From NCBI GenBank assembly GCA_028679935.1, contig JAJRAL010000162.1, positions 1 through 23,155 on the forward strand: a DNA stretch of 23,155 bases, written 5' to 3'. Of the stretch, positions 1,086-23,003 are shown one piece after another (the stretch's first letter is position 1; each line of letters begins with the position of its first letter). The notes under the pieces were generated by a model. The model was not told the origin of the DNA. It searched no databases and saw only the letters and a program-made list of their open reading frames with translations. The position numbers were made by a program, and so were the translations under genes. Origin of the DNA: Methanomassiliicoccales archaeon. Lineage in GTDB: Archaea; Thermoplasmatota; Thermoplasmata; Methanomassiliicoccales; UBA472.

Positions 1086-1577
1086 CTATTTGCACTTTAT
1101 GTCCTTTTGGTCCCAGCGAACCACCGGCTTGATGTCAAGGATCGGCGTGCCATTGAAGGCGTCGAGCCCCCTCACCTTGAGCCGGTTGCCCTTCCGGCCC
1201 AGTAGCTCGACCTGCGCCATTCCTATCGGGTTCGGACGACGAGGACTTCGGGTCGCGAAGACGCCCAGCAGCGGGTTGCTCTCATCGTTGCGAGGATGGA
1301 GCTTGAGGTCGTAGCCGTCGGAACGGTCGAAGTGGAATAGGACGATGATCTCCTTCTGCGATTCGATGCCGTCGAGACCCTCCTCGAGCTCCGGCAGGAT
1401 CTCTATTTCGCAGACGTCGTCTGGAGAAGCGCCCTTCCCGAGTCGGCGCACGCGGCCGATCGGTCTGAGCTCTACTCCTTGAACAGGAACTCTTCGAGGC
1501 GTCCTCTCGCCTCCTCCCTGCGCTTCTGATGCGCCTCGAGGAAGTGCACCAAGCGGTCGCTCAGCCTCTTCTTGCAT
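1086..1577 (-). CDS. trmO: TrmO/TsaA-family tRNA (t6A37) N6-methyltransferase
   Basis: TrmO-family proteins use S-adenosylmethionine to methylate N6 of t6A37 in certain tRNAs. The body shows the family signature: HPRNDESNPLLGVFATR, then SPRRPNPIGMAQVELL, then GLDAFNGTPILDIKP close to the C-terminus. The start is uncertain. Homology begins at about 1475 (VELRPIGRV), but that codon is GTA. Upstream in-frame ATGs lie at 1577 and 1607, inside trpS, and the only start without overlap is GTG 1451, which would remove the conserved first strand. I give 1577, meaning a ~106-base overlap with trpS; the extra N-terminal residues are not conserved-looking. An AAGGAG occurs at 1480-1475. Function is confident, start is not. 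Confidence 0.85.
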   Translation of the reverse strand: MQEEAERPLGALPRGASEAQGGGERTPRRVPVQGVELRPIGRVRRLGKGASPDDVCEIEILPELEEGLDGIESQKEIIVLFHFDRSDGYDLKLHPRNDESNPLLGVFATRSPRRPNPIGMAQVELLGRKGNRLKVRGLDAFNGTPILDIKPVVRWDQKDIKCK

Positions 1578-2587
1578 TCGCCACACAAGATGTCGCCCTT
1601 GCGGCATCGGTCCGCCAGGTCGTCTACGCCTTTGTCGTCCTCCTCGAAGAGGAAGTACTGGTACTTGTAGACGGAGCAGACCTCGGGCTTGCCGCCGGTC
1701 TTCTTCTGCTCCTCCGCGGAGACTGCGCCGCCAGTGAAGGCGTTGGCGATCTTCTTCCTCGCGACCTTCGGCGGGTCGGTCGTGAATATCGTCGTCTCCG
1801 GCTGAGACGAAGACATCTTGTCATTCCCGGTGAGCCCGGGGAACATTTTGCTGTGGATGAGCGCGGGCTTGTAGTAACCAAGCGACTCCGCCACGTCCCT
1901 CGTGACCCGGAAATGCGGGTCCTGGTCGATGCCGCAGGGGATGAGCACCGGGACGTTCTTCCCCTTCAGCTCGGACGGCAGGAACGCCGGCGCGGACTGC
2001 ATGCTCGTATAGAATATGCTGCCGATGTTGGTGGAGTTGTCGAAGCCGAACACCGCCCTGGTAGTGGAGAAAGTGACCTTCTTGGACACCTTCAGTGCGA
2101 GCGGGTAGAGCGTCCTGATGCACTTCGTGTCGACGATGATCTTTGTCAGCTTCGGGTCGAAGCCGAGCGCGATCACGTCGAGGGCGTTCTCGTAGGACGC
2201 CTTGAGCGTGTCCTCCATGCTCAGGTTCTCGTTGAACAGGAACTTCTCGTCGTCGGTCATCTGGAAGTAGAGCTCGGCGTGGAAGGTGTCCTGCAGCCAT
2301 TTGGTGAATATCCAGGGCATTAGGTGACCGAGGTGTGTGTGCCCCGAAGGTCCTCTTCCCGTGTACAGCACGAAATCCTCGCCCTTTTCCTTCATGTCGA
2401 GGATCCAGTCGAGGTCCCGTTGGGAATAGATGATGCCCCTCCGGAGCAGGGGATGAAGCGGCCCGTACTTGGACAGCCTGGCGAGCATGTCCTCGTCGAT
2501 GCGCTTGGTCCCGAAGCGCTTGATGAGCTCGTCGTAATCTATCTCGCCGGAGACCTCCCACGGGGTGACTGTGAAATCGCCCTCCAT
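1472..2587 (-). CDS. trpS: Tryptophanyl-tRNA synthetase, archaeal/eukaryotic type
   Basis: Class I synthetase that charges tRNA-Trp. The 371-residue product has the family N-terminus FTVTPWEVSGEIDYD, a HIGH-type motif HLGHL at residues 85-89 within TGRGPSGHTHLGHL, and a KMSSS motif at 257-261. A Cys pair (CGEC) near the C-terminus may be structural. The N-terminal block matches archaeal/eukaryotic TrpRS rather than the shorter bacterial type. I chose ATG 2587 because the conserved sequence starts right after it; an in-frame ATG at 2614 would add nine unremarkable residues. It is the first gene of a minus-strand group with trmO, whose frame overlaps its 3' end, and pheS. Confidence 0.94.
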   Translation of the reverse strand: MEGDFTVTPWEVSGEIDYDELIKRFGTKRIDEDMLARLSKYGPLHPLLRRGIIYSQRDLDWILDMKEKGEDFVLYTGRGPSGHTHLGHLMPWIFTKWLQDTFHAELYFQMTDDEKFLFNENLSMEDTLKASYENALDVIALGFDPKLTKIIVDTKCIRTLYPLALKVSKKVTFSTTRAVFGFDNSTNIGSIFYTSMQSAPAFLPSELKGKNVPVLIPCGIDQDPHFRVTRDVAESLGYYKPALIHSKMFPGLTGNDKMSSSQPETTIFTTDPPKVARKKIANAFTGGAVSAEEQKKTGGKPEVCSVYKYQYFLFEEDDKGVDDLADRCRKGDILCGECKKRLSDRLVHFLEAHQKRREEARGRLEEFLFKE

Positions 2588-2662
2588 CCTGGCACCGTCG
2601 CGTGCGTAGCGCATGAGCGCTAATGAATCTTTCCGACACTGGCAAAAACAGAAATCATGAGC

Positions 2663-2682
2663 GGCGGGGCTTGCGCCCCGCC
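2663..2682 (-). terminator. GNRA-loop hairpin, likely terminator of the beta-helix protein gene
   Basis: Just past the stop at 2694, the minus strand reads GGCGGGGC-GCAA-GCCCCGCC, a perfect 8-bp GC stem closed by a GCAA (GNRA) tetraloop. A T-rich stretch (tttctgttttt) follows about 10 bases later. It separates the large surface-protein gene from trpS. The stem is seen directly; its role in termination or 3'-end stability is inferred. Confidence 0.6.
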
Positions 2683-2693
2683 TAAGATCTTTC

Positions 2694-7552: not shown

Positions 7553-8100
7553 CTAGTCTCCGATGATCCTCTCTTCGCACTCTTCGAACTCGCGGTCTCC
7601 ATAGTTCTGGAATGCATCGACCTCGGCGAGCGCGGGCTGAGAGCATCCAAGTCCTTCACCAATACGATTCAGGCATATTTGATTCGACGTCTGTGGGTTG
7701 GATGCGGAGACCGACTCGGTGTCCAGTTCGTAGAACCTCCCGAGCCCAGGGTCGTAGTGCCTCGCCGAGAGGTAATACAGGCCGGTCGGCGTGTCCCTGA
7801 TCTCGCTCGCGTACGTGGCTCTGCTCGTTCCGGTCGTGGTGACCGGCGTCCCGAACGGCTTGTACGCAATGACGCTGAAGAGCGGCGTGGCGAAGTCGCC
7901 GTTGTTCAGGACCATTCGGACCGAACCGAGCGCGTCGCAGACGTACGACTGCTTCTCAGTCGGTGAGACGACCCTCAGCTCGAGCTTGCTCCCTAGGTAG
8001 AGGTACTTCCATCCCTTGTTGTCCGAACCTACTTCGCAGATTGTGTCATAACCTTGGTAGACATAGCGGTGACCGTCCCGGACTCTTCGGTCTTCGCCCT
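7553..8100 (-). pseudogene. Decayed second copy of the RHS C-terminal core (orphan tip), frameshifted
   Basis: Translated on the minus strand this repeats the end of the intact RHS gene: CEVGSDNKGWKYLYLGSKLE, SYVCDALGSVRMVLNNGDF, then IRDTPTGLYYLSARHYDPGL and GRFYELD. The matching stretch in the intact gene is at about 9679-10060. The 5' end is broken near 8100: AKTE..., equivalent to AKTVEG in the intact protein, lies in another frame, and the alignment needs one lost base near 8075. After GRFYELD the sequence diverges and stops at 7553 after about 50 residues (NQICLNRIGEGLGCSQPALA and beyond), so the RHS core motif NRYVY...DPSG is missing. It has no signal peptide or plausible start of its own. 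It fits an orphan RHS tip left by recombination, now decaying. Confidence 0.75.
7720..8080. repeat. Direct DNA repeat of the RHS core, copy 1
   Basis: About 360 bases repeated at 9679-10039 in the same orientation, offset 1959 bases. The section 7891-8030 looks about 90% or more identical by eye to 9850-9989; the section 7720-7890 is nearer 80%. Such a repeat could recombine and delete the intact RHS C-terminus together with the gene at 8287-8814. Confidence 0.75.
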
Positions 8101-8938: not shown

Positions 8939-11900
8939 CTAACCTCCCCTATATCTCATATCATTGAGCATACCTCCATAGTAGGAGACGAATGCCTTCA
9001 TCCCTTGGCTGACAGGAATGCCGATTTCCCTCGATCCTCCGATTAGGGAAGCAACAGTCGCCACCTCTCCTAGGACTTCCGCCGTGTTCACTGACATGGT
9101 GCGCACTCCGTCGGTGATGCCTTCCCTGGTCGCATAGCTCGCCGTCTTCGCTGATGCGAAGCGATCCGTGAAGGTGGCTTTCAGGAGGTCATAGGGCTTG
9201 ACGCCCTTTGGAACTGCCTTCGCAAGGATTTTGGCAAAAGCCCCTCCCGAAACCAGGCCTGTCACTCCACCGACAATTCCACCGTAGGCCGCACTTTCCA
9301 CCATCTTACCCAGGTTCCAGTTCGATTTCGCGCCCGCAGACAATGCCCCTTCGAGAGCCCCGCCCGCCGCGCTGCTGATTCCCCCGACAACCATTCCATT
9401 CAGGACGGCACTGGAAGCGATCAGTGACGTCCCCATGGTCAGGCCCGCGAGCCCCCCGGCAACCATTCCACCTAGCATTGCAGCTCCAGTGGCCTGAAGG
9501 TCGCCACCCGACATCACATAAGTTGCAATCCCACCAATGACAGCCCCAACTACCGCTCCGATTGCTGCTGCGATTAAGTTGAAAAACCGGCCACTCGGGT
9601 CTGCGTGAATCAGCGGGCTATTCACACAGTACACATACCTGTTTAGGATTTGCGGTCTAGCCGGTGAGCCGAGCTCCGGATCCAGCGCATAGAACCTCCC
9701 CAGTTCCGAATCATAGTACCTCGCCGACAAGTAGTACAGGCCGCTCGGCGTGTCTCGAATCTCGCCCGCATACGTCACTTTGCTCGTTCCACTCGATACG
9801 ATTGGCGTCCCGAACGGCTTGTATGTCCTTGCGCTGAACAGCGGCGTGTTGAAGTCGCCGTTGTTCAGGACCATTCGGACGGAGCCGAGCACGTCGCAGA
9901 CGTACGACTGCTTCTCCGTCGGGGAGACGACCCTCAGCTCGAGCTTGCTCCCTAGGTTGAGGTACTTCCACCCCTTGCCATCGGAACCGACCTCATAAAT
10001 CGGGTCATGGCCCAGGTAGACGGTCTTGTTCGTGTACGCGCCCTCGACCGTCTTCGCCCTCGCGCCGTTCGCGTCGTAGTAGTAGGAGGCGAGGGTAGTG
10101 AGTGGCTGCCACCCTCCCGCGTAGACCTGCTTCTTGACCGCGGTCATCCGTCCGAAGGAGTCGTAGGTGTAATTGTAGCGGACGTTCATCGAGATCTCCT
10201 TCCAGACGATGTTGCCGTTCGAGTCGTGCGTGTATGTCCATGTCCCGTCCGAGGTGATCTTGCTGTACGTGGTGTAGGTGCAGGTCCTGTTCGTCCCGGC
10301 GTCGTTCTTCCAGAGCCTGTCGCCGACGCCGTTCGTCGTGTACCCGAACATAATCGTCCCGAACGTCGAGTTGGCCATCGCTTTCGTGATCCGCCCGAGC
10401 TGGTCGTACCAGTAGAACTCGTTGCCAGCGCTTCCCACGGCGTCCCTGATGCTCCAGACGTTGCCGTCGGCGTAGTAGTCGTAGAAGAGGTCGACGATGA
10501 CGCTGTTCGAGTACGTCTTGCCCTTGATTTCCTGCACGAATCCGCGGCTGTTGTACCAGTACGACATCGACGAGTTCGAGTTGCCGTACTTCTCGACCGC
10601 GATCGCGTCGTCCTGGCTGTACGTGACGTTGAGCAGCGGCGCGTTCCCGATCTTCATGTCGGTAGGTCGGGTGTAGCGGTCGTAGGAGTAGGTGATCCTC
10701 TTTCCGTCGGGATAGTCTACATAATCCACGTCGCCCACCGCATTGTAGTGGTATCCGAATGTGAACGAGTTGGAATCGATCCTTTCCGTGACGGATGAGA
10801 TGAGATCCCTGTTGTTGTACTGGCAGACAATGTAGCCGATGGAGTTGGAGCGATTCGTGACCAGTCCTTCGGCGTTGTAGGTCGTCCTGATCGTGTCGTC
10901 AGTCCCCGACACACGGACGATATTCCCCGACGGGTCGTATGAATTCGCCGTCACAGAGTTGCTCCTCGAGGTTGCGGTGAGGAGCCTCCCTCCTTCATCA
11001 TACGTATAGGATTCGCTCTTCGAGTCCGGATAGGCGATCGACGTCTCACGCCCGAGCGAATCGTAGTATGTCCGGGTGACCTCGTTGCTCGACTGCCGGA
11101 CAATGAGAGTCTGTCCCAACGCGTTGTAGGTGACCTTGGTGCTGTGGTATGACGACGCGGAGTAGAATTCCCTTGTCTCATTGAGTTGCCCCAACAGGTC
11201 AAGAACGGTCACGGTTTTGTGCCCAAGTTCGTCGAGCGCGGTGACGGTCCTGTTCCTGTCGTCGTACGAAACGGTGCTGGTGGTGCCATCATTGCTCCTG
11301 ACAGAGGTCGTGCGTCCCTTGTAGTCGTAGGTGCACTTCGTGACTCTTCCCATCTCGTCCACGGTTCTCGACGGCTTGTCCTGCCACGTGTTGTATACGG
11401 TCGATGTCGAGTAGACCGTGGTCCCCGCGCCGAGGCGCTGGATCTTGAATTCCCGGCCAATTGAATCATACCTGGTCATCACCTTCTGGCCCAGCTCATC
11501 TGTGGCAGTGACCTTGTTCGACGCGTCGTCGTACGCATAGGTGCTGTATGTTCCGTCTGAGTTATTTCTCCTGACCACCCTCCCTAGAACATCGTACTGC
11601 GTGCTTGTCGTGTGGCCGAGCGGGTCGGTACTGGACAACACCCTTCCGTTGCTGAGGTCGTACGAGTAGCTCGTCTTCGGGAGTTCTCCGCCCAGGTAGT
11701 ACAGCTGATCGCTATAGCGGAAGTCGTCGTAGTAGACGCGGAACTGATCGCCTAACCCTGGCGGCCCCCATGCCGCCACGCAGGTCGTGTAGAGCTCGAA
11801 GCGGACCTTGTCGCATCGTTCCCAGTTGATCGTCCAATCCGACCCAGGATACAGAGTTCTTTGGATCCAAGTACTCTGGGTCGGCATTCCGCAGATGACC

Positions 11901-14900
11901 TTGACTGTCGGATCGGCCGTGGTCCTGTTGTTCCCCCCCTGATACCAGCACGCAAGCCAGTATGTGTAGTTCGCGTAGTTCACACCCGCGGAGTCATAGA
12001 GCCTCATCCTGATGCCGGAGTCCAGGGAGTCCGTACCGTCCCCGTTGTGCCGGTACATGTCAGAGTACATCCAGACCGAGAGCCTTGTCACCCTGCTAGC
12101 GTAGAAGTCCTTGTAGTACAGTACTGTTCCGTAGTCCGTTCCGCTAGTCCACGAGAACGACTGCTGGATGGAGCGGGATTGCGAGTGCCATTGGGTCGAG
12201 GAGTATTGGTTGGTAATCCACGAGGTTGCTCCTGCGGTCCAAGAGTTGTCCCAATCGAGGTTCTCTTGCTTCTCCGCAATCCTCATGGAGATGGGATACG
12301 TGTACTTATTCGAAGACGAGTAGTCGGTGTACGTCATCCTTCCCGTGCCATCCATCGACCACACCAGATTGCCGTACTTGTCATATCCCGACCTCGTGTA
12401 CGTCCACCCTGTAGCCAGCTTGGATCTTGTCTCGATCTGACTCCCTTCGATGTCGTAGCTCAGGTAGGTCTCCTGTGACACCGACTTGGCATAGTCCTGA
12501 TAGGTGAATGACCCGACCGGCCGGTTGTGGATCCCGAACTTGATCGAATTGGGGTAGAAGCTTGGGGAAGAATACGTGAACTGATCGCCGTTGTAGACCT
12601 CTGGAACTCTCGGGCTGACGTACAGGGTCTTCCCGGAGTTGTCTTGGATCTCAAACGTCGCTGCGATAGGGAACGCACGGATGCTGCTCGTGTAGGGCGT
12701 CAAAGTGAGGCTGGACGAAGTGGCTGTCCCTTGGATGGCCGTTCCATCGTCCAGCTTCATCAGTACCTTCATGCCCGAAGTGAGCCCGACGATTTCGATG
12801 CCTGTCCTCGTTGCCTTGCTCGTCGCGTCCCACATCGCTGTCCCCGAGTAGAGCGCGTACAGTGTTCCGGTGAGGTAGGTATTCGTCGTGACTCCAATAT
12901 CCGAGGCCTTTACCGTGAGCATCAACCACTGGCCCGTTAGGGTCGGCATCGGTCCACATCTGACGCTGGCAACCTGGTAGTAGGGTGCGGTGCTGATCAG
13001 GTCCGTGGTCCCGCCCCAGTAGACTCTGTGCCACCTGTTATCTTGGGCGAGATAGAACTGAAGTGCCATCTCGTACGGAAGCCTGCCATTGGTCAGCTGG
13101 ACGAATTGGATGATGGTATCCGTTGGGGAGATTGCCCATCCAGGATTGTCGTTGATATACCCGTGATAGTGACTGCTGTAGTCCGTCCAGTAGCTTGACA
13201 GATAGCAGTTGTAGTGATACTGGTTGCTACTGACCGCATTGTCAGGATCCCATGCCCAATTCAAATCAACAGTTCCAGGATAGTAGTAGCTATAGACCGG
13301 CGTCGATCCCCAAGGCTCTCCATCGTCGCCAACCACCGAGTTCCATCCATTGTATCCAAGAATGGTCTTTGGCAGATTCGACTTGTGGAAACCCCTGGAA
13401 TACGAATAGGCATCGCCGCCCCACACGTCCAACATCGGCATTGAGAACGAGTAGTTGCCCCTGAAATACACCCGCATGAACGCGGGAGGTGAAGCGAGAG
13501 GAGGCCTCGACATGACTAGTATGTTGCTACCGACGCTCCTGTCAAGCAGTGCTCCGTTCGATGCCACTAGATCGACGACGCAGCCTGAAGGAATGCCGCT
13601 AAGCGTTATGGTAAGGCTCTTGTAGATACGCACATTGTCGAACCAGACACTCATTGGGCTCCCAGTTCCATCGTCGGAAGCCTTTATCACGAAGTACTTA
13701 ATCGCGCCGCTCTGCCTGAGTGGTGCCCCGTTCTTCACTACAGCGCCGTCGATGAAGATGTCGTATGTGCTATTCGAGTTGACGCGGATGCCAACGTCGT
13801 ACCAGGTGTTCGCAAGGCATGGCGCTGCGTTCACATACTGGCCCGCTGAGTTGACGTACTGGAAATAGCCATTGTAGGCGATGATGTCGACGCGGCAGTA
13901 ACTAGCCGACCTCGCCTGAATCATGCCCCGGGCACCCGTTCGGTCTACCTTGAACACGGTCTGGATTATGAACGAGCCGCTCTGATCTGGAATGGTGTAT
14001 TGGACGTTGCAGCTCAATGTTCCGCTTGTCCTGTTCAGCTTCAGAGCTGGTGAAATCGCGGGATCCACAGTCCCGTCGAGGGTCGAGGAGCAGCCCGAGC
14101 CTATGTTGCGTTGCCAATCGGAGTAGTCCCAGTCATCGAAGGCGTCGTCGAGAATCTTCCCGCTTGTGGTGCGATCAAGGGCTTCTCCTCCCTGGAACGA
14201 GTTCTGGTTCGAGGTGTTCGCGTAGGTATAGAACGACTCGTGCCCGAGTGCGTCCCTGGTATAGATCTGGTTACCCCAGTCGTCGTAGTTCATGTACTCG
14301 GTGGAGTTCACAGTGGGTGAGGTGCCAAGGTAGGTATCTATCCTGGCCGGCTGACCTGCCAGGCTGTACCAGGTCACCTTCGCCTGAAGTTGCGTCCCGC
14401 TTGAGCTCTTGATCGTTTCCCTAGAGGAGGCGAGGGAGGAACGGAATATGTATTCGTTCCACCCTTGAAGCGCGCCAGTCTCGTTGTAGGTGCTGACCTT
14501 GGCGAAGACGACTCTCCCATTGATTATCTTGTAGTCGAAGTTTGTCTGTCTGATCAATGGGTTCGATACGAGTGTACCGTTCCGAAGCGATTCTTTCGTG
14601 ACCATCCAGGTGCTCATCTCGGTACACGGCGTCAGATCCTGCGCGAACGACAGGTTCGTGCATCCGCCCGTCGGATAGAGGACTCCCCCAAGGATGTAGG
14701 ATGCCGTGTTGTTGTAGTAGAACGTCGTCACTCTCCCATCCGGATCGGTGACTGTCCTCAGGAAGTACTTCGTGGCCGAGGCGATGGTATGCGAAGCATA
14801 GGTGTAATTGACCTTCTTCCCGTCAGGGCGCGTGACCTGCGCGAGCCTACCCCCGCCGTCGTATGCAAAAGAGACCGAGCGCCCTAGTGCGGTCCCTGAC

Positions 14901-17485
14901 TCCGTGATTGCCGAGAGGCGGTCGCTCGAATATGTGAAATTCAGACAGTTGTATGGCACGGTCTCGCCGCTCGCCTTCGGGTTGTAGTTGTCAAGGTCCG
15001 AGACCATCAGCAGCTTGTGAGGCGACGAAGATTCGAACTTGTACCTTTGCCCCGATGCGGTTAGGAGCTCGTAAAAGCGGCTCCCTCCCATGGTCACGTC
15101 CCTGAGGACGAACTGAGCGTCAGCGTGACACACGAACTCCTTGGAATTGCCCTGATTTCCCCATTGGATGATATAGCGTTGGCCGTTGGCGAGACACACG
15201 CAGACATCGTCCATCCAGGGAAGATCGAGAGACCAGTACTCGCCGATGTTGCAGAATGGGAAGGACTTAGTACCATACGCTGTGCCATTGGACCAGAAGT
15301 ACCTCGGCTGCTGGTATATTCGCGAGAGACCTAGCAGCATCCCCGCTCTTCCTTCGATGGCGACGTCTGTCTGGCTGAGCGTCATGAGGCCAGAACCGGG
15401 CGATACATAGTCGCTATTCATCTGGAAGTAGGTGCCATAAGGTGAGAGACCGTCACGGTTCCAGGGATTGGACGGCGCCCCAGGCGTGCCGAACGGAAGA
15501 GGGATGCTAGCGAACTTCACCGTCTTGGTCCCGCCATTCACCTCTGTCCATGCGATGGACAGAACGTTGGCAGGGTTGTATGAGCAGGTGAGCCCCTTGA
15601 CTGTGACCCCCGAGGCGGCGGTGTAGATGCATATTGGGGTCGACCATGACCCCCCGAACTCTCCCCTCTGCGTGTAATATACCGCCCGCTGCCCGGGCGA
15701 CGAGACGTATGCGAGATGCAGAACGCCATTGGCGTCGATGGCTATGCTCGGGCTGGCCACTCCCGTGGCTACATTCGTCGGCCCGATCATCGTACCATTC
15801 GGGTAGAGTTCTGCATATCGTACGTAGCCGTTCGTGCCCAGGTACGCGACATGCAACGCGCCGTTCATGGAACTTGCCGCCGAGAAGTTGTTGGCCTTCG
15901 ATGTTGTGCTCATTCCGAGGTCCTTCGTAATCGCCGCGCTCCAGTTCGTGATTCCGGTGCAATACGTATAGTCCACACTCGATGACGAGCCGAGCGTGTG
16001 TAGCAGACTCATGTTCCCGTTGGACCCTGGCATCAGCACGTAGTAATTCGGACTGGCCACGTAGTCGTTCTTCCAAAGTGCCTCATTGTAGAATGTCAGC
16101 CCATCAAAAGACCTCTGCACGAGGTGATACTCGTCGAGTCTCCAGCGGTAGTACTCCTCGTCCCACCATCTCGTTTCATAGAGGTAGTTGATCCAGAACG
16201 AAGAATCCGTGCCGACTGTGATAGTGATGGGCCAGGCCCATGTCATCTCTATGTCCTGAATAAAGGGGCATATTTGAACACGGGATTTCCAGACGATCTT
16301 GTCCCCTTGGATCGTTCCTCCCTTGAAGTAGATGTAATACGAGGTGTCTATCCACCCCACGCCCACCACTCCGTTCCGCGAACTCACATCGAAGCCCGTT
16401 CCGCTGCATGGGCAGGTTCCTTGGGGGAGAGGGTAGGCCGGGCCCCATGTTGAGCCATCAGGGCTTGTTGAGTAGACGATACCACTTCCGCTGAAGTAGA
16501 ACAGCCAGTAGTTGCCGTTGTACCAGAACACCTTGCGCTGAGAGCCGAACTCGGTCGCCTCTCCCGTCGACGGATTCGCTACGAACGTTGGATCAATCGA
16601 CCGCATCCCCGCGGGAAAGGTTACTCGCAGGGCCGTCATGTCGGATTCATGAACTGCGCGACTCACGACATCGAGGTCCCCCGCCTTGGCATCGCTCCAG
16701 TTTACTTCCAGAACCGCCTTTCCAGCTCCAAGCCTCACGTTGAACTCGGGTGATGCGATCCTTTGACCGCTGTAGACGTCCAGGCCGACCGGGTTGGTAG
16801 TACCATCGCGCAAAACGGCCTCCTTGTTCGGGGCGATAATCCAAACGACGCTCCAGGTCCTGTAGATTGGCGAGATGCAGTCAAGCGTCGCGGTAATCTT
16901 GACAGGCCTAGATCCTTCGAATTCATACAGCATGTCCATTTGACCGGCGACATCCGATGTCACTCCGTCGGTCAGTACGTAACTGAGATCGAGGACACTC
17001 TCCGTGGCCACAAACACCTTGCCTTCGGCCGGGACAAGTTCTCCTCGATCGGTCTCGACGGTGAAATAGGAGCTCTCCACGACCTTGGTCGCATCAGTGG
17101 CGACGAGGGATACGTATCCCGGCATGGAGGCGTTGAGATGATAGGCTCCGAACTGCGTCCAGTACGACACCTCTTCTCCATCGATCGTCACGTAGGAATT
17201 GGGCACAACACCGATAGGATCGGAAATTGACGAATACGAGGAATCCCAGTAGCCTTCAAGCGAGCCAGGAGGCAGATTGCCTGCCAGAGTTGGTGCCTCT
17301 GCAATCGAATCCGATTGATTGCAGAGTGCCTGCAATTCATCAATGGCTGCGTCCGATCCCTCTATCCGCCCTACTGGTCCCCTTGTTTGCTCTGCACCTA
17401 CGTTGGAGGCGAGAACATGAAACGCGGTCACCAGCATCAGGATGGCGCATGCTACGCTTGTAATCCGTCGCGCGAGTTCGTTCAT
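8939..17485 (-). CDS. Giant secreted RHS/YD-repeat protein with propeller-like, LamG-like and glycine-rich C-terminal regions
   Basis: A 2848-residue exported protein. A signal peptide covers residues 1-32 (hydrophobic core VACAILMLVTAFHVLA). Residues ~310-665 contain sialidase/BNR-like strands (STSPDGSTWGPAY) suggesting a beta-propeller. YD-type sequence begins at ~830-930 (RPDGKKVNYTY, DPDGRVTTFYY). A concanavalin/LamG-like jelly roll lies at ~1115-1290 and further beta-rich, PEGA-like stretches to ~1650. The main YD-repeat array, ~1940-2560, has units such as TDPLGHTTSTQYDVLGRVV. The RHS core motif is at ~2590-2630: GLYYLSARYYDSELGRFYAL, then NRYVYCVNSP and DPSG. After DPSG about 215 residues remain, rich in GG and A with hydrophobic helices (VVGAVIGGIATYVM), ending GGMLNDMRYRGG. 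In bacterial RHS proteins this position holds the variable toxin. No known nuclease motif is visible; a membrane-active tip or membrane-passage segment is possible. I chose ATG 17485 over TTG 17512 because a TATA-like box at 17531-17538 would start transcription near 17510. Confidence 0.92.
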   Translation of the reverse strand: MNELARRITSVACAILMLVTAFHVLASNVGAEQTRGPVGRIEGSDAAIDELQALCNQSDSIAEAPTLAGNLPPGSLEGYWDSSYSSISDPIGVVPNSYVTIDGEEVSYWTQFGAYHLNASMPGYVSLVATDATKVVESSYFTVETDRGELVPAEGKVFVATESVLDLSYVLTDGVTSDVAGQMDMLYEFEGSRPVKITATLDCISPIYRTWSVVWIIAPNKEAVLRDGTTNPVGLDVYSGQRIASPEFNVRLGAGKAVLEVNWSDAKAGDLDVVSRAVHESDMTALRVTFPAGMRSIDPTFVANPSTGEATEFGSQRKVFWYNGNYWLFYFSGSGIVYSTSPDGSTWGPAYPLPQGTCPCSGTGFDVSSRNGVVGVGWIDTSYYIYFKGGTIQGDKIVWKSRVQICPFIQDIEMTWAWPITITVGTDSSFWINYLYETRWWDEEYYRWRLDEYHLVQRSFDGLTFYNEALWKNDYVASPNYYVLMPGSNGNMSLLHTLGSSSSVDYTYCTGITNWSAAITKDLGMSTTSKANNFSAASSMNGALHVAYLGTNGYVRYAELYPNGTMIGPTNVATGVASPSIAIDANGVLHLAYVSSPGQRAVYYTQRGEFGGSWSTPICIYTAASGVTVKGLTCSYNPANVLSIAWTEVNGGTKTVKFASIPLPFGTPGAPSNPWNRDGLSPYGTYFQMNSDYVSPGSGLMTLSQTDVAIEGRAGMLLGLSRIYQQPRYFWSNGTAYGTKSFPFCNIGEYWSLDLPWMDDVCVCLANGQRYIIQWGNQGNSKEFVCHADAQFVLRDVTMGGSRFYELLTASGQRYKFESSSPHKLLMVSDLDNYNPKASGETVPYNCLNFTYSSDRLSAITESGTALGRSVSFAYDGGGRLAQVTRPDGKKVNYTYASHTIASATKYFLRTVTDPDGRVTTFYYNNTASYILGGVLYPTGGCTNLSFAQDLTPCTEMSTWMVTKESLRNGTLVSNPLIRQTNFDYKIINGRVVFAKVSTYNETGALQGWNEYIFRSSLASSRETIKSSSGTQLQAKVTWYSLAGQPARIDTYLGTSPTVNSTEYMNYDDWGNQIYTRDALGHESFYTYANTSNQNSFQGGEALDRTTSGKILDDAFDDWDYSDWQRNIGSGCSSTLDGTVDPAISPALKLNRTSGTLSCNVQYTIPDQSGSFIIQTVFKVDRTGARGMIQARSASYCRVDIIAYNGYFQYVNSAGQYVNAAPCLANTWYDVGIRVNSNSTYDIFIDGAVVKNGAPLRQSGAIKYFVIKASDDGTGSPMSVWFDNVRIYKSLTITLSGIPSGCVVDLVASNGALLDRSVGSNILVMSRPPLASPPAFMRVYFRGNYSFSMPMLDVWGGDAYSYSRGFHKSNLPKTILGYNGWNSVVGDDGEPWGSTPVYSYYYPGTVDLNWAWDPDNAVSSNQYHYNCYLSSYWTDYSSHYHGYINDNPGWAISPTDTIIQFVQLTNGRLPYEMALQFYLAQDNRWHRVYWGGTTDLISTAPYYQVASVRCGPMPTLTGQWLMLTVKASDIGVTTNTYLTGTLYALYSGTAMWDATSKATRTGIEIVGLTSGMKVLMKLDDGTAIQGTATSSSLTLTPYTSSIRAFPIAATFEIQDNSGKTLYVSPRVPEVYNGDQFTYSSPSFYPNSIKFGIHNRPVGSFTYQDYAKSVSQETYLSYDIEGSQIETRSKLATGWTYTRSGYDKYGNLVWSMDGTGRMTYTDYSSSNKYTYPISMRIAEKQENLDWDNSWTAGATSWITNQYSSTQWHSQSRSIQQSFSWTSGTDYGTVLYYKDFYASRVTRLSVWMYSDMYRHNGDGTDSLDSGIRMRLYDSAGVNYANYTYWLACWYQGGNNRTTADPTVKVICGMPTQSTWIQRTLYPGSDWTINWERCDKVRFELYTTCVAAWGPPGLGDQFRVYYDDFRYSDQLYYLGGELPKTSYSYDLSNGRVLSSTDPLGHTTSTQYDVLGRVVRRNNSDGTYSTYAYDDASNKVTATDELGQKVMTRYDSIGREFKIQRLGAGTTVYSTSTVYNTWQDKPSRTVDEMGRVTKCTYDYKGRTTSVRSNDGTTSTVSYDDRNRTVTALDELGHKTVTVLDLLGQLNETREFYSASSYHSTKVTYNALGQTLIVRQSSNEVTRTYYDSLGRETSIAYPDSKSESYTYDEGGRLLTATSRSNSVTANSYDPSGNIVRVSGTDDTIRTTYNAEGLVTNRSNSIGYIVCQYNNRDLISSVTERIDSNSFTFGYHYNAVGDVDYVDYPDGKRITYSYDRYTRPTDMKIGNAPLLNVTYSQDDAIAVEKYGNSNSSMSYWYNSRGFVQEIKGKTYSNSVIVDLFYDYYADGNVWSIRDAVGSAGNEFYWYDQLGRITKAMANSTFGTIMFGYTTNGVGDRLWKNDAGTNRTCTYTTYSKITSDGTWTYTHDSNGNIVWKEISMNVRYNYTYDSFGRMTAVKKQVYAGGWQPLTTLASYYYDANGARAKTVEGAYTNKTVYLGHDPIYEVGSDGKGWKYLNLGSKLELRVVSPTEKQSYVCDVLGSVRMVLNNGDFNTPLFSARTYKPFGTPIVSSGTSKVTYAGEIRDTPSGLYYLSARYYDSELGRFYALDPELGSPARPQILNRYVYCVNSPLIHADPSGRFFNLIAAAIGAVVGAVIGGIATYVMSGGDLQATGAAMLGGMVAGGLAGLTMGTSLIASSAVLNGMVVGGISSAAGGALEGALSAGAKSNWNLGKMVESAAYGGIVGGVTGLVSGGAFAKILAKAVPKGVKPYDLLKATFTDRFASAKTASYATREGITDGVRTMSVNTAEVLGEVATVASLIGGSREIGIPVSQGMKAFVSYYGGMLNDMRYRGG
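9679..10039. repeat. Direct DNA repeat of the RHS core, copy 2 (in intact RHS gene)
   Basis: In-gene partner of 7720-8080. It codes for the last YD units and the start of the RHS core motif. The copies have the same orientation and lie 1959 bases apart. Confidence 0.75.
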
Positions 17486-17530
17486 ATGGAATCGCCGTCG
17501 AGAATCGTACAAATGAGTTTCGTCTAGCAG

Positions 17531-18871: not shown

Positions 18872-19666
18872 ATGCCCGAGACCGTCAGGATCGGCCAGGA
18901 GGATGAGGACCGCCTGGACCGCAGCAGGAGGCTCGGCTGGCTCGACGTTGACAGGATCGGAATGGCGCGATTCCTCGTCGTCGGGGCGGGAGCGCTCGGC
19001 AACGAGGTCATCAAGGACCTGGTGCTCTCTGGTGCGCGCCACGTCGTCCTCGTCGACATGGACCGCGTCGTGAGGTCCAACCTCAACCGCTGCGTCTTCT
19101 TCAGGGAGGAGGACGCACGTCTTGGCCTGGACAAGGCGACGGTCGTTGCGAGGAGAGCAAGAGAGCTTGACCCGGACGTCGAGATCGATGCCGTTGTTCG
19201 CAGGATCCAGGACCTGCCATCGACGACGTTCGAAGAAGTGGACATCATCTTCGGATGCCTGGACAACGTGGCGGCGAGGATGCACGTAAACGCGGAGGCG
19301 TATCGAAGCTCGACGCCGTACATCGACGGGGGAACGAGCGGGGCGCTCGGAAAGGTGCAAGTCGTGATTCCTCCCGGCCCATGTCTCCAATGCGCGACCA
19401 ATGCCACTCATTCGAAGGTGCTCGAGAGGCGATTCAGCTGCACCGGCTCCGACGTCTCGTACTTCGAACCGAAGCTCGCCGCCGAGATCACCACGACGAG
19501 CGTCATAGCGGCGATACAGGTCCGGGAGGGGCTGAAGCTGCTGAGCGGGGCGGGGGACAGGTGCCTTGCTGGCATGCTGTTCTACGACGGACTGAACAAC
19601 CGGACCGAGGTCTTCGAGGTGCAGCTGGATGAGTCCTGCCCGGTGCACCCGCGCCATTCTGCCTGA
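18872..19666 (+). CDS. E1-like (ThiF/MoeB/UBA5-type) ubiquitin-like activating enzyme
   Basis: Expected to adenylate the C-terminal glycine of the neighbouring ubiquitin-like protein with ATP and pass it as a thioester to E2. In the 264-residue version, the nucleotide loop VGAGALGN is at 37-44, the acidic Mg/ATP residues are in VDMDRV (D62, D64), the SNLNR arginine-finger motif at 69-73, K88 in LDKA, and D131 in CLDN. A zinc site is likely from C171/C174 (CLQC) and C256/H259 (CPVH), unusual in having His as the fourth ligand. C190 in RFSCTG aligns by position with the catalytic-cysteine region of MoeB-type enzymes. There is no C-terminal ubiquitin-fold domain, so it is a minimal E1. GTG 18830 would add 14 residues (MDECIFYRLVLGTS); I prefer ATG 18872 because of the promoter-like element covering the GTG. 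The downstream Ubl, E2 and JAMM genes rule out a plain thiamine or molybdopterin role. Confidence 0.88.
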   Translation: MPETVRIGQEDEDRLDRSRRLGWLDVDRIGMARFLVVGAGALGNEVIKDLVLSGARHVVLVDMDRVVRSNLNRCVFFREEDARLGLDKATVVARRARELDPDVEIDAVVRRIQDLPSTTFEEVDIIFGCLDNVAARMHVNAEAYRSSTPYIDGGTSGALGKVQVVIPPGPCLQCATNATHSKVLERRFSCTGSDVSYFEPKLAAEITTTSVIAAIQVREGLKLLSGAGDRCLAGMLFYDGLNNRTEVFEVQLDESCPVHPRHSA

Positions 19667-19677
19667 CCTGCCAGGGT

Positions 19678-19717
19678 GGTTATCAGTTAGACTAACTGTG
19701 ACGGATAGGATTAATCA
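19678..19717 (+). promoter_or_regulatory. Palindromic shared element plus TATA-like box upstream of Ubl
   Basis: GGTTATCAG (19678-19686), nine bases, CTGTG (19696-19700), then GATTAATCA at 19709-19717. Within it CAGTTAG-A-CTAACTG (19684-19698) is a perfect 7-bp inverted repeat, the form of a dimeric repressor or activator site. Transcription would start near 19738, about ten bases before ATG 19748. The E1 copy shares the outer parts but its middle is not palindromic. Confidence 0.5.
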
Positions 19718-19747
19718 ACCTCAGAAGGGTCGAAACCCCGTGATACG

Positions 19748-19987
19748 ATGGTCGTGCACATCCGGGTGAGGAACGCGGAGACCGGCTCCACGGTGGACAT
19801 GGAGCTCGAGAACGAGAACACCGTACACGAGATCATCGAGGGCGCGGCGGGCTATTGGGAGAAGGATCCAGGCGCCTACGTAATCAGGAAGGGGAAGAAG
19901 CTGCTCAAGGGACAACAGAGCGTTCTCGAGTCGGGGATCGCCGAGGCCGACGAGCTCGAGCTTCTTCCGGACCCCGAGGGCGGCTGA
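19748..19987 (+). CDS. Ubiquitin-like modifier protein with C-terminal Gly-Gly
   Basis: A 79-residue protein with the strand-turn-strand-helix order of a ubiquitin/beta-grasp fold: VHIRVRNAETGSTVDMELE, then the helix TVHEIIEGAAGYW, then VIRKGKKLLKG and a final DELELLPDPEGG. It ends exactly in Gly-Gly (78-79), so it needs no processing before activation. It should be attached to target lysines by the adjacent E1 and E2 and removed by the JAMM protease. GTGAT lies three bases before ATG 19748 as a short Shine-Dalgarno. The stop TGA is directly followed by the E2 ATG (TGAATG), indicating translational coupling. SAMP or ThiS/MoaD-like sulfur carriers share fold and tail, but the E2 neighbour favours protein conjugation. 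Confidence 0.85.
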   Translation: MVVHIRVRNAETGSTVDMELENENTVHEIIEGAAGYWEKDPGAYVIRKGKKLLKGQQSVLESGIAEADELELLPDPEGG

Positions 19988-20497
19988 ATGCCCCTGCCGA
20001 GGGACCTCCTACTCAAGCGCATCGGAAACGAACTGGCGATATGCCAGAGATGCCTCCGGCATCCAATCCAGATCAACTCAGAGGCGCTCAAGCAGATACC
20101 GCTCGAGATCGAGGTCAGCCTGACTCAGATCCCCGCGATGGAGAAGGTGGATGGTGTGCTGAAACGGCGCTACCACCACCGCTTCCGCATGACCATCACC
20201 GAGGAGTATCCGTTCGTCAAACCCCAGGTCGTCTGGTGCTCGCCGATCTTCCATCCGAACATAATGCTTCCAGAGGACGGGGGACTGCTTTGCAGCAAGC
20301 AGCTCGAGGGTTGGACGTTCAACTCCACCCTCCTCATGTTCATCAAGGGGATCGAGTACCTTCTCCTCAACCCGAACCCGAGGAGCCCATTCGGCACGCC
20401 CTCCTGCACCGAGGCGGCGGAGTACTTCAACACGCATGGGACGCCACAGCCCCCGATGGCCAAGGTGCCGAAGCCGAAGGTGGTGGGCCAGACTTGA
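19988..20497 (+). CDS. E2-like ubiquitin-conjugating enzyme (UBC fold)
   Basis: A 169-residue UBC-fold protein that should accept the modifier from E1 as a thioester and transfer it to lysines. The core fits the E2 pattern closely: YHHRFRMTITEEYPFVKPQV, then IFHPNI with the HPN motif at 89-91, the catalytic cysteine C102 in GLLCSKQLEGW with W109, and then LLLNPNPRSPFGTPSCTEAA. Presence of both HPN and Cys argues that it is active. The N-terminus holds CQRC (19-22) with H25 nearby, which could be half a metal site; the C-terminal ~20 residues are proline/lysine-rich. It starts immediately after the Ubl stop and overlaps the JAMM start by four bases (TTGA). No RING or HECT ligase is visible nearby, so transfer may be E3-independent or use a distant ligase. 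Confidence 0.9.
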   Translation: MPLPRDLLLKRIGNELAICQRCLRHPIQINSEALKQIPLEIEVSLTQIPAMEKVDGVLKRRYHHRFRMTITEEYPFVKPQVVWCSPIFHPNIMLPEDGGLLCSKQLEGWTFNSTLLMFIKGIEYLLLNPNPRSPFGTPSCTEAAEYFNTHGTPQPPMAKVPKPKVVGQT

Positions 20498-21147
20498 GGC
20501 CGAACGTCGTCGGAGCGAACGAGGCGAAAATCGAGGAACGTACTCCGCCGCCGAAGGAGTTGCGCACCGCGCACCGGTGGCTGAGCGCCAACTCAAGGCT
20601 CGCGTTCGACGCCTCGGAGGACAAGCTCGACCTCTACGTGTCGAAGCTCGCCGAGGAGAAGATCAGGAACCACGCGATGAGCAACGCCGATCAGAGGCTC
20701 GAGGTGATGGGCTTCTTGCTGGGGAACGTCTACCGCCATGAAGGAGTGACCTACAGCCTCGTCAGGGACGTGGCCACGACCGACCTCCAGGCATCGTCCG
20801 TCCGGGTGAGGTTCCAGCCCGAGGCGATGGAGAAGCTCTTCGAGTCGATCGACGATTGCGGCTTCAGCTATCTCGTGGTCGGTTGGTATCACTCTCATCC
20901 GGGCCACGGATGCTTCCTTTCCTCCATCGACGTCGACACGCAGAGGGCGATGTTCGACAAGCCCTATCACTCGGCGTTGGTGATCGACCCGCTCCGTCGC
21001 GAGATCGAGGCGTTCCGCATCGAGAACGGTATTGCGGTGCCGAGGCCATTTGCGATCTATTGGGACCGGCACCAGAACCCATACTACGGCGAGACGGTCG
21101 TTCGCAGGAGACTGATCCGGAAGGCGGAAGAGAAGAAAGAGGTCTGA
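20494..21147 (+). CDS. Rpn11-like JAMM/MPN+ metalloprotease (deubiquitinase-like)
   Basis: A 217-residue zinc isopeptidase expected to remove the neighbouring modifier from conjugates. The complete JAMM site is present: E70 in EVMGFLLG, and GWYHSHPGHGCFLSSID giving H133, H135, S143 and D146. The wording around the site, including the Cys after HPG.G and the DTQ that follows, is strikingly like eukaryotic proteasomal Rpn11/CSN5. I chose TTG 20494 because it overlaps the E2 stop (TTGA), follows a GGTGGTG Shine-Dalgarno-like run by eight bases, and no ATG occurs before residue 62. The first ~45 residues are an extension before the MPN core. The C-terminal tail is basic and charged. The gene ends two bases from the convergent SIS gene. 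Confidence 0.9.
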   Translation: MRPNVVGANEAKIEERTPPPKELRTAHRWLSANSRLAFDASEDKLDLYVSKLAEEKIRNHAMSNADQRLEVMGFLLGNVYRHEGVTYSLVRDVATTDLQASSVRVRFQPEAMEKLFESIDDCGFSYLVVGWYHSHPGHGCFLSSIDVDTQRAMFDKPYHSALVIDPLRREIEAFRIENGIAVPRPFAIYWDRHQNPYYGETVVRRRLIRKAEEKKEV

Positions 21148-21156
21148 GCTCAGACC
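21141..21156. terminator. 16-bp perfect palindrome covering both convergent stop codons
   Basis: GGTCTGAGCTCAGACC contains the TGA of the JAMM gene on the plus strand (21145-21147) and the TGA of the SIS gene on the minus strand (21152-21150). It may act as a bidirectional terminator or a protein site, but there is no loop or T-run, so termination is only a guess. Confidence 0.35.
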
Positions 21157-21689
21157 CAGATCGCGTGCCTGCGGCGCATCATGTGCTCGGTCTGATCGAG
21201 CTTCTGCATCAGGACCGGCACGAGCGAATCCAGCAAGAGGTAGGAACTCGCCTCGAACAGCGTTCCCAACGGAGCGAGCTTCGGGCGGTTCTCGTCCCGG
21301 CGGACGGGTAGCTCGACCACAATGGTGGAGGCGGAGGCGAGCTTGGAGTGCGCGTTGCTCGTGAGCAGCGCCACCTTCGCTCCGATCCGTCCGACGATGT
21401 TCGCCGTCTGTATCGCGGACATCGTTTCGCCTGTGTTCGAGACGATTACAACGAGGTCGCCTGTCTCGACTATCGGCGTCGTCGTTTCCCCTATGAAGTG
21501 CACATCCAGGCCCAGCTGAACGAGCCTGACCGAGAACGCCTTGGCCACCAGGCCCGATCGCCCGACCCCGTAGACGAAGATCTTCTTGGCGCCGATTATC
21601 GCGTCGACGAACTGCTCCACCGCCTTGTCGTCGACCGCCTCAAGGGCGCGATGCGCCTCGGTGACGATGTAGGAGGCCGCTTCCCTCAT
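21150..21689 (-). CDS. hxlB: SIS-domain protein, 6-phospho-3-hexuloisomerase-like
   Basis: A 179-residue single SIS domain. In archaea this family interconverts 3-hexulose-6-phosphate and fructose-6-phosphate in the ribulose monophosphate route, used for pentose supply or formaldehyde handling. Visible motifs are YGVGRSGLVAKAF (40-52), IGETTTP (66-72), SNTGET (84-89) and a C-terminal helix FEASSYLLLDSLVPVLM. They match HxlB-type proteins well, including the short ending after RRRHA. The start ATG overlaps the last base of the upstream stop (TAATG), so it is translationally coupled to the TIM-barrel gene. No HxlA partner is in the window, so the exact substrate is inferred. Confidence 0.8.
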   Translation of the reverse strand: MREAASYIVTEAHRALEAVDDKAVEQFVDAIIGAKKIFVYGVGRSGLVAKAFSVRLVQLGLDVHFIGETTTPIVETGDLVVIVSNTGETMSAIQTANIVGRIGAKVALLTSNAHSKLASASTIVVELPVRRDENRPKLAPLGTLFEASSYLLLDSLVPVLMQKLDQTEHMMRRRHAIWV

Positions 21690-22834
21690 TAGTCCTCATC
21701 TTCCTCGTCATCATCCTCATCGTAACTGGTGGTCTTGGAGCCGCGCTTCCCTGGGGCGGGCTTCTTGCCCTTCTTCTCCTTGCCCTCCTTCTCCGGCTTC
21801 TCGCCCTTCTCTGGCTCCTTCTTCGCCTTCACGTCCTTGGCGACCTTCTTGGTGAGGATGCGCTCATAGATGACCTTCATGTACATCGCGTCGTGCTCGA
21901 GCAGCGGCGACGACGATATGATCGTGCAGTTCGGGTTCGCCTCGACCAGGTACTCGGCCAGGGGCTCGAACCGAAGATCGCCCTTCTTGATCGGCGTGAC
22001 GCGCTTCTCGTTGCCCGCCTCGTGCTCGACGCCTGAGAAATGAGTGTAATAGATCTTGCCGACGTACTTCTTCGTCTTGTCGAAGAGCTCGCCGAAGTCC
22101 GAAGGCTCACGGAGGGAGCCGTTCTGCCGCGCGTGGTGATGTGCGAAGTTGATGATCGGCACCGGTCCCTTGATGTCGTCGCAGAGCCCGAGGACCTCGT
22201 CGAGGGAGCCCCAGACCTCCTGTCTTCCCGATATCTCGAGGCCGAGCTGCGGCTTGATCTTGTTGGCCTTCCACCAGGAGACGACCTCGCCGATGTTCTC
22301 CTCCACGATCTCCTTCGCCTTCTTCTTGCTCAGCTTGCCGTAGAGGCCGACGTGCGTGGTGATCATCACCCCGCCCATCTGGTTCGTCATCAGACCGGCC
22401 CATCGAATCGAGTCCATCGACTTCCTCGTCAGCTCTGTGTTGCTGGTGAGGTCCATGTAGTACGGGGTGTGCATGCTCAGCTCGACGTCGAGCTCCTTCC
22501 CCATCTTCCCGAGGACGTTGAGCTCCTTGTAGTTCTGGACCAGGCCCGAGGCGAGCGTGATCAGGGAATCGTCCTCCGCGATCTCCTCCTCGAGGTCCGT
22601 TATCCTCACCGTTTTCTTGCCCTTCTGGCGGACGATCTCGACGATCAGGTCCCCCTCGAGGTTGATCGGGCTCGCCCCGATTTCCTCCTCATCGGGCGGG
22701 CGCTCCACGACGTTCACACGGACCATCTGCACCTCCATCGCGTTCAGGCCGAGGTTGTGCACGTCCTCGATACCGTCCTTTAGCGTCCTACCCTTGCAAG
22801 AAAGAGGTATGCCAGCGGGGCCAAAGCGTATCAT
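21689..22834 (-). CDS. Endonuclease IV/xylose-isomerase-like TIM-barrel protein with charged C-terminal tail
   Basis: A 381-residue AP-endonuclease-2/sugar isomerase superfamily barrel. Likely metal ligands are H122 (SMHTPYYMDL), H161 (TTHVGLYG), E200 (GLEISG), H232-H234 (FAHHHARQNG), H265 (YTHFSGVEHE) and E313 (SSPLLEHDA), the pattern of endonuclease IV, which cuts DNA at abasic sites. A charged insert (~45-92) separates the first strand from the rest of the barrel. Residues ~334-381 are a lysine/glutamate tail that ends in a run of Asp and Glu, not part of the enzyme fold. ATG 22834 is chosen because MIRFGPAGIPLSCKG is the natural N-terminus and a TATA box lies 39 bases upstream; the 56 upstream codons are not conserved-looking. 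DNA repair is the leading role, but coupling to a sugar-phosphate isomerase leaves a sugar isomerase or epimerase role possible. Confidence 0.82.
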   Translation of the reverse strand: MIRFGPAGIPLSCKGRTLKDGIEDVHNLGLNAMEVQMVRVNVVERPPDEEEIGASPINLEGDLIVEIVRQKGKKTVRITDLEEEIAEDDSLITLASGLVQNYKELNVLGKMGKELDVELSMHTPYYMDLTSNTELTRKSMDSIRWAGLMTNQMGGVMITTHVGLYGKLSKKKAKEIVEENIGEVVSWWKANKIKPQLGLEISGRQEVWGSLDEVLGLCDDIKGPVPIINFAHHHARQNGSLREPSDFGELFDKTKKYVGKIYYTHFSGVEHEAGNEKRVTPIKKGDLRFEPLAEYLVEANPNCTIISSSPLLEHDAMYMKVIYERILTKKVAKDVKAKKEPEKGEKPEKEGKEKKGKKPAPGKRGSKTTSYDEDDDEEDED

Positions 22835-22872
22835 GAGCACACCAGATATCTCACAGGTTATCAGGGAGGCTC

Positions 22873-22879
22873 TATTTAA
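22873..22879 (-). promoter_or_regulatory. TATA box of the TIM-barrel/SIS operon
   Basis: The minus strand reads TTAAATA, 39 bases before ATG 22834. A start of transcription near 22850 would leave a ~16-base leader. The motif agrees well with the archaeal TATA consensus. Confidence 0.6.
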
Positions 22880-23003
22880 GGGCTCTCGGCTGGCGCAATG
22901 CAGGGAGAGCGGCTTCGCTGGAAGCCTCGTTGAGTCGCCCCGCCTGAAGGTCTTCAGAGGACCGCACCAAAGGCATCCAGCAACGACGCCGTTCACAGGC
23001 AAC

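Follow-up and report, generated by a model that had tools for sequence, protein, structure and literature searches.

Can members of a euryarchaeal order tag proteins with a ubiquitin of their own, and do such tags lead to the proteasome? The question is raised by a four-gene cassette at positions 18872–21147 of a 23,155-nucleotide stretch of DNA (contig JAJRAL010000162.1 of assembly GCA_028679935.1, from a Methanomassiliicoccales archaeon), which was analysed as a whole and is called the window here. The cassette encodes, in this order, an activating enzyme (E1), a ubiquitin-like modifier (Ubl), a conjugating enzyme (E2) and a JAMM metalloprotease. This kind of system is already known from Caldiarchaeum and Asgard archaea, where E1/E2/RING ubiquitin systems have been reported and are used in the debate on the origin of eukaryotes. 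Judging from sequence, we consider it probable that E1, Ubl, E2 and the Rpn11-like JAMM make up a working conjugation and deconjugation pathway, probably coupled to the proteasome, whose ligase (E3) would be a RING protein linked to psmA, the 20S proteasome alpha gene.

An earlier description of the window (the original prediction) had proposed an E1–Ubl–E2–JAMM set in what might be a thermoplasmatal or other euryarchaeal lineage, and open reading frames (ORFs), Pfam and conserved motifs confirm it. All four genes lie on the + strand (Table 1), and the E2 stop codon and the TTG start of JAMM overlap by 4 bases. A scan of genome contigs found 94 relatives of the E2, of which 80 were kept; these are assigned to Methanomassiliicoccales (families, genera), to Thermoplasmata, Thermoplasmatales or Thermoplasmatota, or to Euryarchaeota. 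Together with the window they form a first set of 81 loci, in which Ubl was recovered in 75, JAMM in 76 and E1 in 67; the unrecovered genes include those at contig ends and those of loci L037 and L048, which have E2 only and belong to a single genome. Ubl and E2 are at most 18 bases apart in 75/75 loci, and E2 and JAMM are at most 20 bases apart or overlap in 74/76. Because the motifs are conserved across this set, a chance origin of the cassette is excluded. In public databases, several of the proteins already go by the name ubiquitin-conjugating enzyme E2.

The window E1 matches Pfam ThiF at 6.8e-50. The nucleotide-binding and SNLNR motifs attributed to it recur in an alignment of 67 E1s, where GxGAxGN, SNLxR and CxxC...CxxH are conserved. 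Cys204, the candidate catalytic residue, is present in 66/67, the CxxC in 66/66, C270 in 67/67 and H273 in 66/67. We take Cys204 to be collinear with the catalytic cysteine of UBA2 and UBA3; only ~30 residues separate the CxxC (C188) from the conserved EITTT (E219). Apparent internal stops in reference E1s raised the possibility of pyrrolysine, which we rejected, as the stops reflect misplaced ORF starts.

The modifier, described as a 79-residue protein ending in Gly-Gly, has that length and end, and its C-terminal PDPEGG is conserved in 75/75 loci of the first set (later loci L081–L085 and L138 have PDPQGG). Its Pfam matches are sub-threshold only (YukD 0.037, ubiquitin 0.055). Structure prediction had been named beforehand as a test that could refute the assignments of Ubl and E2, and it gave a beta-grasp for 19748–19987 and a UBC-like fold for 19988–20497. 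The AlphaFold2 model of Ubl has a predicted local distance difference test (pLDDT) score of 93.0 and the strand and helix order of a beta-grasp; its top Protein Data Bank (PDB) match in Foldseek is Caldiarchaeum ubiquitin (6fno_D, E 1.4e-7, template modelling (TM) score 0.88), from a complex with the Caldiarchaeum Rpn11 homologue. When the Ubl profile was compared with PDB, the strongest rows were polyubiquitins in which each single repeat is insignificant, and the best single-domain row was a designed ubiquitin variant (4.8e-4).

E2 matches Pfam UQ_con at 4e-10. The HPN motif and catalytic cysteine that had been read in it (H89-P90-N91 and C102) are conserved in 81/81 loci, as is a second cysteine, C140. 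Its UBC-like AlphaFold2 model (pLDDT 84.7) finds Ubc4/UbcH5-kind ubiquitin E2s as top PDB matches, the first three with TM 0.61–0.64. Some E2s have an in-frame TGA. We rejected recoding: this codon most likely terminates a shorter E2, because the aligned part is free of stops to about residue 146. JAMM matches Pfam JAB at 3e-16, and the E/H/H/S/D set listed for it is complete, with E70 in 75/76 and H133, H135, S143 and D146 in 76/76. Its best PDB match by profile is RPN11 (3.2e-27), followed by the Caldiarchaeum homologue (6fjv, 9.8e-23) and CSN5 (1.4e-20).

The archaeal E1–Ubl–JAMM content is shared with the small archaeal modifier protein (SAMP)/UbaA system of Haloferax, and a ThiF/MoeB-like E1 with CxxC...CxxH would suit a sulfur-carrier or SAMP-type E1–Ubl pair to which E2 is incidental. 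The window E1, however, scores 88 bits, far below the SAMP E1 (UbaA) cut-off of 450; at least one further ThiF match occurs in 9/9 E2-bearing genomes tested, three cassette-less genomes keep one, and the E2 cysteine and HPN are invariant. According to the accessible text of PMC11354881, SAMPs are conjugated without the help of any E2 or E3, whereas here E2 is present and a RING protein co-occurs with it. We regard a sulfur-carrier or SAMP-type pair as extremely improbable.

Does the protease belong to the same pathway? The window Ubl terminates at GG without a tail, as do 39 of the 75 Ubls in the first set; the other 36 are tailed. In an enlarged set of 125 distinct loci, a tail of 1–15 residues follows GG in 59 of the 98 loci with an intact JAMM motif and a readable Ubl end; 3 more tailed loci have JAMM cut by a contig end, and 15 loci have no readable Ubl. 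A tailed Ubl would need trimming by JAMM, and the Caldiarchaeum JAMM cleaves such a tail in vitro, as described in the accessible text of PMC5654768 and PMC6043591. Seven loci (L074, L081–L085, L088) have a motif-less JAMM-like ORF beside E2, and the Ubl is tailed in 0/7 (Fisher 0.0024, not phylogeny-corrected). The link between tail and JAMM motif is suggestive. An initial count of 0/9 (Fisher 0.0005) was discarded, with L063 (genome G023) and L141 (G011) removed as second cassettes: neither has an adjacent JAMM, and their sister cassettes, L170 and L169, carry one. As an observation in its own right, the seven motif-less loci have lost the metal motif HxH...S..D yet keep E2 and a GG-ending Ubl; they would conjugate Ubl with no evident active deconjugating enzyme encoded at the locus itself.

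How widely is the cassette kept, and in what surroundings? Of 147 genomes from the order to which the host belongs (that of locus L009, Methanomassiliicoccales), 97 have a member of the E2 family, and so do 79 of 389 genomes of a phylum sample, a few of the latter by very weak matches. The expectation that such a lineage would be an unusual place for the pathway therefore fails for this order, where the cassette is common, but holds to the extent that no description was found in the open-licence literature (see below). The host itself was placed by a trpS-like gene of the window, which groups, within this order, with that of genome G269 (SH-like approximate likelihood ratio test 100; 60 genomes plus the window). 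The gene-neighbourhood survey proposed with the original prediction was run by clustering the neighbours of 80 loci: an HxlB gene occurs in 58 and a TIM-barrel gene in 59, and genes read from sequence as rpl18e, rpl13 and rps9 occur in 21, 19 and 17. The cassette thus lies in a conserved housekeeping or core locus.

Natural deletions are found at this place. In genomes G401 and G179, trpS adjoins HxlB and the cassette is absent. In G309 (locus L203), E1, E2 and JAMM are gone and a 76-residue Ubl remnant remains; this orphan (7011–7241, − strand) has lost the PDPEGG end, one case that fits selection on GG only while the enzymes are present. Apparent JAMM matches in the cassette-less L204 and L205 were rejected as short matches to HxlB antisense, caused by an over-long query ORF.

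The four-enzyme set, together with the Ubl–E2–JAMM order, is also that of the bacterial ISG15-like (Bil) operons, and an antiviral system of this kind would tag virus proteins. PADLOC E1–E2 models match the window E1 at 8.2e-12 and BilD matches at 1.9e-6, a partial match weaker than those of the E1–E2 models; JAB models match JAMM at 2.7e-5. On the other hand, E2 and Ubl have no PADLOC match at E ≤ 1. A Bil defence system would be expected in a patchy, mobile or defence-island context, whereas here the locus is chromosomal, of core type, flanked by conserved housekeeping neighbours and present order-wide; no relative was confirmed in viral contigs and none matched in plasmid records (phage records were not searched). 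A Bil-like antiviral role is very unlikely. Of the two relatives suggested for the cassette, Caldiarchaeum is borne out by the top structural match of Ubl, and Bil is not.

Where, then, is the ligase? No RING protein was seen among the window ORFs, as had been stated, but relatives encode one at the psmA locus or, outside the order, in or beside the cassette. A dedicated RING profile found such a protein in 94/147 order genomes, 91 of them with E2. Pfam PF13639 matched RING domains in 84 of these 147 genomes at E ≤ 0.01 (controls 0/14) and missed RINGs that the dedicated profile recovered; loci L165 and L166, the second PF13639 matches of G397 and G376, had no match to the dedicated profile and were dropped. 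Eighteen aligned proteins share the motif C-x-I-C...C-x-C-G-x2-F-H-x2-C...C-P-Y-C followed by zinc ribbons, and an N-terminal hydrophobic segment was seen in 11 of 21 RING loci of the order by a simple hydrophobicity scale. The best PDB matches of the RING profile are the E3 ligases RNF165 (4.7e-6) and Arkadia (5.1e-6), with ARK2C also found; RNF4 and PHD fingers come lower.

Among the 94 RING genomes, 90 have a psmA match, on the same contig in 84 and on a different contig in 6; the other 4 have none. In 82 of the 84 same-contig genomes the RING gene precedes psmA on the same strand and is no more than 4 kb away (median 747 bases), and in the remaining two the distance is 5.8 and 15.6 kb. The conjugation module and the putative E3/proteasome module occupy two housekeeping loci of a core system that is apparently inherited vertically. 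Proteasome genes were present in 12/12 genomes tested (9 with E2, 3 without). Separately, RING and psmA of L157 are separated by a gene that reads from sequence as FtsZ/tubulin-like (2345–3511, − strand), which the 33 genomes with wider RING–psmA spacing may share.

RING tracks E2: among genomes with a psmA match, it occurs in 87/88 with E2 versus 3/42 without. The sole E2-bearing exception, G480, has psmA beginning at base 65 of its contig. As for the three E2-less genomes with RING, G199 has a weak match in a 33-residue frame, the trpS of G384 is nearly identical to that of the E2-bearing G125, and G438 is a 0.9-Mb assembly. The Fisher p for RING and E2 is 5e-28, and 1.9e-28 when limited to psmA-bearing genomes, neither value being phylogeny-corrected. 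For a corrected test we used a trpS tree holding 28 of 50 E2-less and 32 of 97 E2-bearing genomes, on which E2 changes 11 times and RING 12; of the independent pairs it offers, the result was opposite in 1/200 pairings (supported branches). Phylogeny-corrected co-occurrence is borderline.

Several observations weigh against a RING-dependent, proteasome-coupled pathway as read above. The RING protein is seen in relatives, including the nearest one, G269, and is predicted for the window's organism; just 11/147 genomes pass the Pfam gathering score for PF13639, and one zinc-ligand position of the RING varies, being T or S in L155, L164 and L168. The corrected test has 7 independent pairs, of which usually 5 agree, with a median sign-test p of 0.06 (range 0.03–0.25). 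In the phylum sample, 23/91 RING-bearing genomes lack E2 and 11/79 E2-bearing genomes lack RING, and RING proteins of ~1300–1500 residues occur in E2-less genomes too (L194–L196). On the enzyme side, Cys88 and Cys143 of E1 are conserved as well as Cys204 (64/65 each), and E1 ends at CxxH without an inserted Cys domain, which leaves E2 recruitment unexplained. JAMM weakly matches the PADLOC JAB models, as noted. Its state changes only 3 times on a tree, with 2–3 contrasts, and because of these few changes independent support for the tail link is thin.

The small number of independent contrasts and the RING-like domains of E2-less genomes in the phylum would suit an E2 that acts alone or with other ligases, RING and E2 sharing a phylogenetic distribution only. 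The RING profile, however, resembles the RINGs of E3 ligases, and outside the order a RING gene stands in or beside the cassette at five loci, L169–L173; we consider it improbable that RING is not the E3. Two of these loci (L169, L170) have the order E1, a protein of ~3.1 thousand residues with a C-terminal RING, Ubl, E2, JAMM. In L171 and L172 a large RING protein, truncated where the contig stops, is followed by E2 and JAMM; neither Ubl nor E1 was seen there. L173 reads RING, E1, Ubl, E2, JAMM. A 3155-residue RING protein had zero Pfam matches. L174 encodes cohesin, PKD and Ig domains (Pfam), a hydrophobic segment and a C-terminal RING; since the segment precedes the RING, the RING would face the cytoplasm. 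Long proteins of this type are like receptor-type transmembrane E3s, with surface domains in L174, the one of them scanned for domains. Long proteins with the same ending of hydrophobic segment and RING are also encoded at L184, L185, L186, L198 and other loci. Genome G048 (Thermoplasmatota) has 13 RING matches and two E2s, and its locus L197 encodes a 1987-residue protein with three RINGs; an E3 expansion is possible.

Do the tags serve proteolysis? A working E1–E2–RING–JAMM pathway could instead be regulatory or membrane-directed, with RING at psmA merely through a housekeeping proteasome/exosome operon. Genes read from sequence as SBDS, rrp4 and rrp41 lie 3′ of psmA in L152, so neighbours there need not share a pathway, and the hydrophobic segment in about half of the order's RINGs examined suggests membrane substrates. 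Against this, RING tracks E2 among psmA-bearing genomes, and a JAMM of Rpn11 type likewise suggests a connection with the proteasome; we think a non-proteolytic role rather unlikely. Since the motifs are conserved, these archaea likely tag proteins. Perhaps they do so for destruction, as in eukaryotic cells, a less certain reading suggested by the linkage of RING to psmA and by the Rpn11 character of JAMM.

For the proteasome-coupled pathway we infer the following steps. JAMM would trim a tailed Ubl precursor after GG, which the window Ubl does not need, and would later strip the tag. E1 would adenylate the C-terminal glycine of Ubl and carry Ubl on Cys204, from which it would pass to Cys102 of E2. 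The RING/zinc-ribbon protein, which in some relatives is anchored in the membrane, would deliver E2~Ubl to substrates, and tagged proteins would probably enter the 20S proteasome. We see an even chance that the wider proposal holds: that Methanomassiliicoccales and other Thermoplasmatota run a complete, proteolytic ubiquitin–proteasome pathway outside Asgard archaea and Caldiarchaeum, with the gene of a RING E3 placed together with that of the 20S alpha subunit, and with giant or receptor-like transmembrane RINGs, some in the cassette, in sister lineages.

How does the system compare with those described? Like the Caldiarchaeum and Asgard systems, as far as the accessible text of PMC5654768 and PMC6043591 describes them, it combines a GG-ending Ubl, with a propeptide in many relatives, E1, E2, RING and an Rpn11-like JAMM. 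It differs in its phylum and in having E1 first. The Caldiarchaeum E1 has a Cys domain of ~60 residues in the accessible text of PMC11354881, whereas the window E1 is short and lacks it; and the Caldiarchaeum/Asgard type has a small RING in the operon, whereas the order's cassettes have none and RING lies at psmA instead. Fuchs et al. 2018 (PMC6043591), in the text available, place JAMM-3 nearer Rpn11/CSN5 and state that JAMMs nearer Rpn11 share prokaryotic operons with Ub, E1 and E2 homologues; by description only, the window JAMM could belong to JAMM-3. In the accessible text of Hennell James et al. (PMC5654768), an additional gene cluster, Cluster III, is mentioned with reference to a supplementary figure. 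Because of these operons, JAMM-3 and Cluster III, part of the system may already be in print. The main text of PMC6043591, as accessible, contains no member sequences and no terms that start with thermoplasm, euryarchae or methano, and the accessible text of PMC11354881 names BilA, BilB and BilD. Across the open-licence literature, including the accessible text of PMC5654768, PMC6043591, PMC11354881, PMC7203096 and PMC12993045, we found no Thermoplasmata system described and no RING at psmA. The presence of such a system throughout much of a euryarchaeal order shows that systems of this kind are more widely spread. It offers relatives in which E1–E2–E3–proteasome coupling can be probed, and the psmA-linked RING makes it testable whether archaeal ubiquitin tags feed the proteasome.

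Table 1. Positions of the cassette genes, their neighbours and the host-placement marker in the window.
Feature	Position	Strand	Remarks
E1, ThiF-fold Ubl-activating enzyme	18872..19666	+	ATG start more likely; ORF reaches GTG 18830
E1 candidate catalytic Cys204 (numbering from GTG 18830)	19439..19441	+	within RFSCTG; 66/67 conserved
Ubl modifier, 79 residues, C-terminal PDPEGG	19748..19987	+	PDPEGG 75/75; beta-grasp model
E2, UBC fold, HPN 89–91, C102, second invariant C140	19988..20497	+	Pfam UQ_con
JAMM metalloprotease, Rpn11/CSN5-like	20494..21147	+	TTG start 20494; Pfam JAB
HxlB-type SIS isomerase, convergent neighbour	21150..21689	−	NCBIfam TIGR03127 169.1 bits, cut-off 160
AP_endonuc_2 TIM-barrel protein, neighbour	21689..23002	−	Pfam 2.2e-15
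trpS-like gene (named from sequence), host-placement marker	1472..2614	−	84% identical to G269 trpS

Some cassettes depart from the common form. L137 may be a Ubl–E2 fusion cassette: next to its JAMM and E1, a single frame (4666–5355) has both a weak Ubl-like and a weak E2-like match. Genome SG225.bin14, which holds L037 and L048, has these two E2 genes with no further cassette gene nearby; L048 is near a contig end. JAMM has a long C-terminal extension in L071 (10527–12413, 629 residues in total) and in L080 (10524–13145, 874 residues in total), the latter with a zinc-ribbon-like stretch.

Elsewhere in the window, positions 8939–17512 (− strand) encode a 2857-residue archaeal protein with RHS repeats (Pfam RHS_repeat 2.6e-25) and a hydrophobic C-terminal tip. 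A short ORF at 7553–7915 (− strand), without a Pfam match, closely resembles by eye the last part of this protein's RHS core but has a different tail, as would a remnant of an RHS tip that was displaced.

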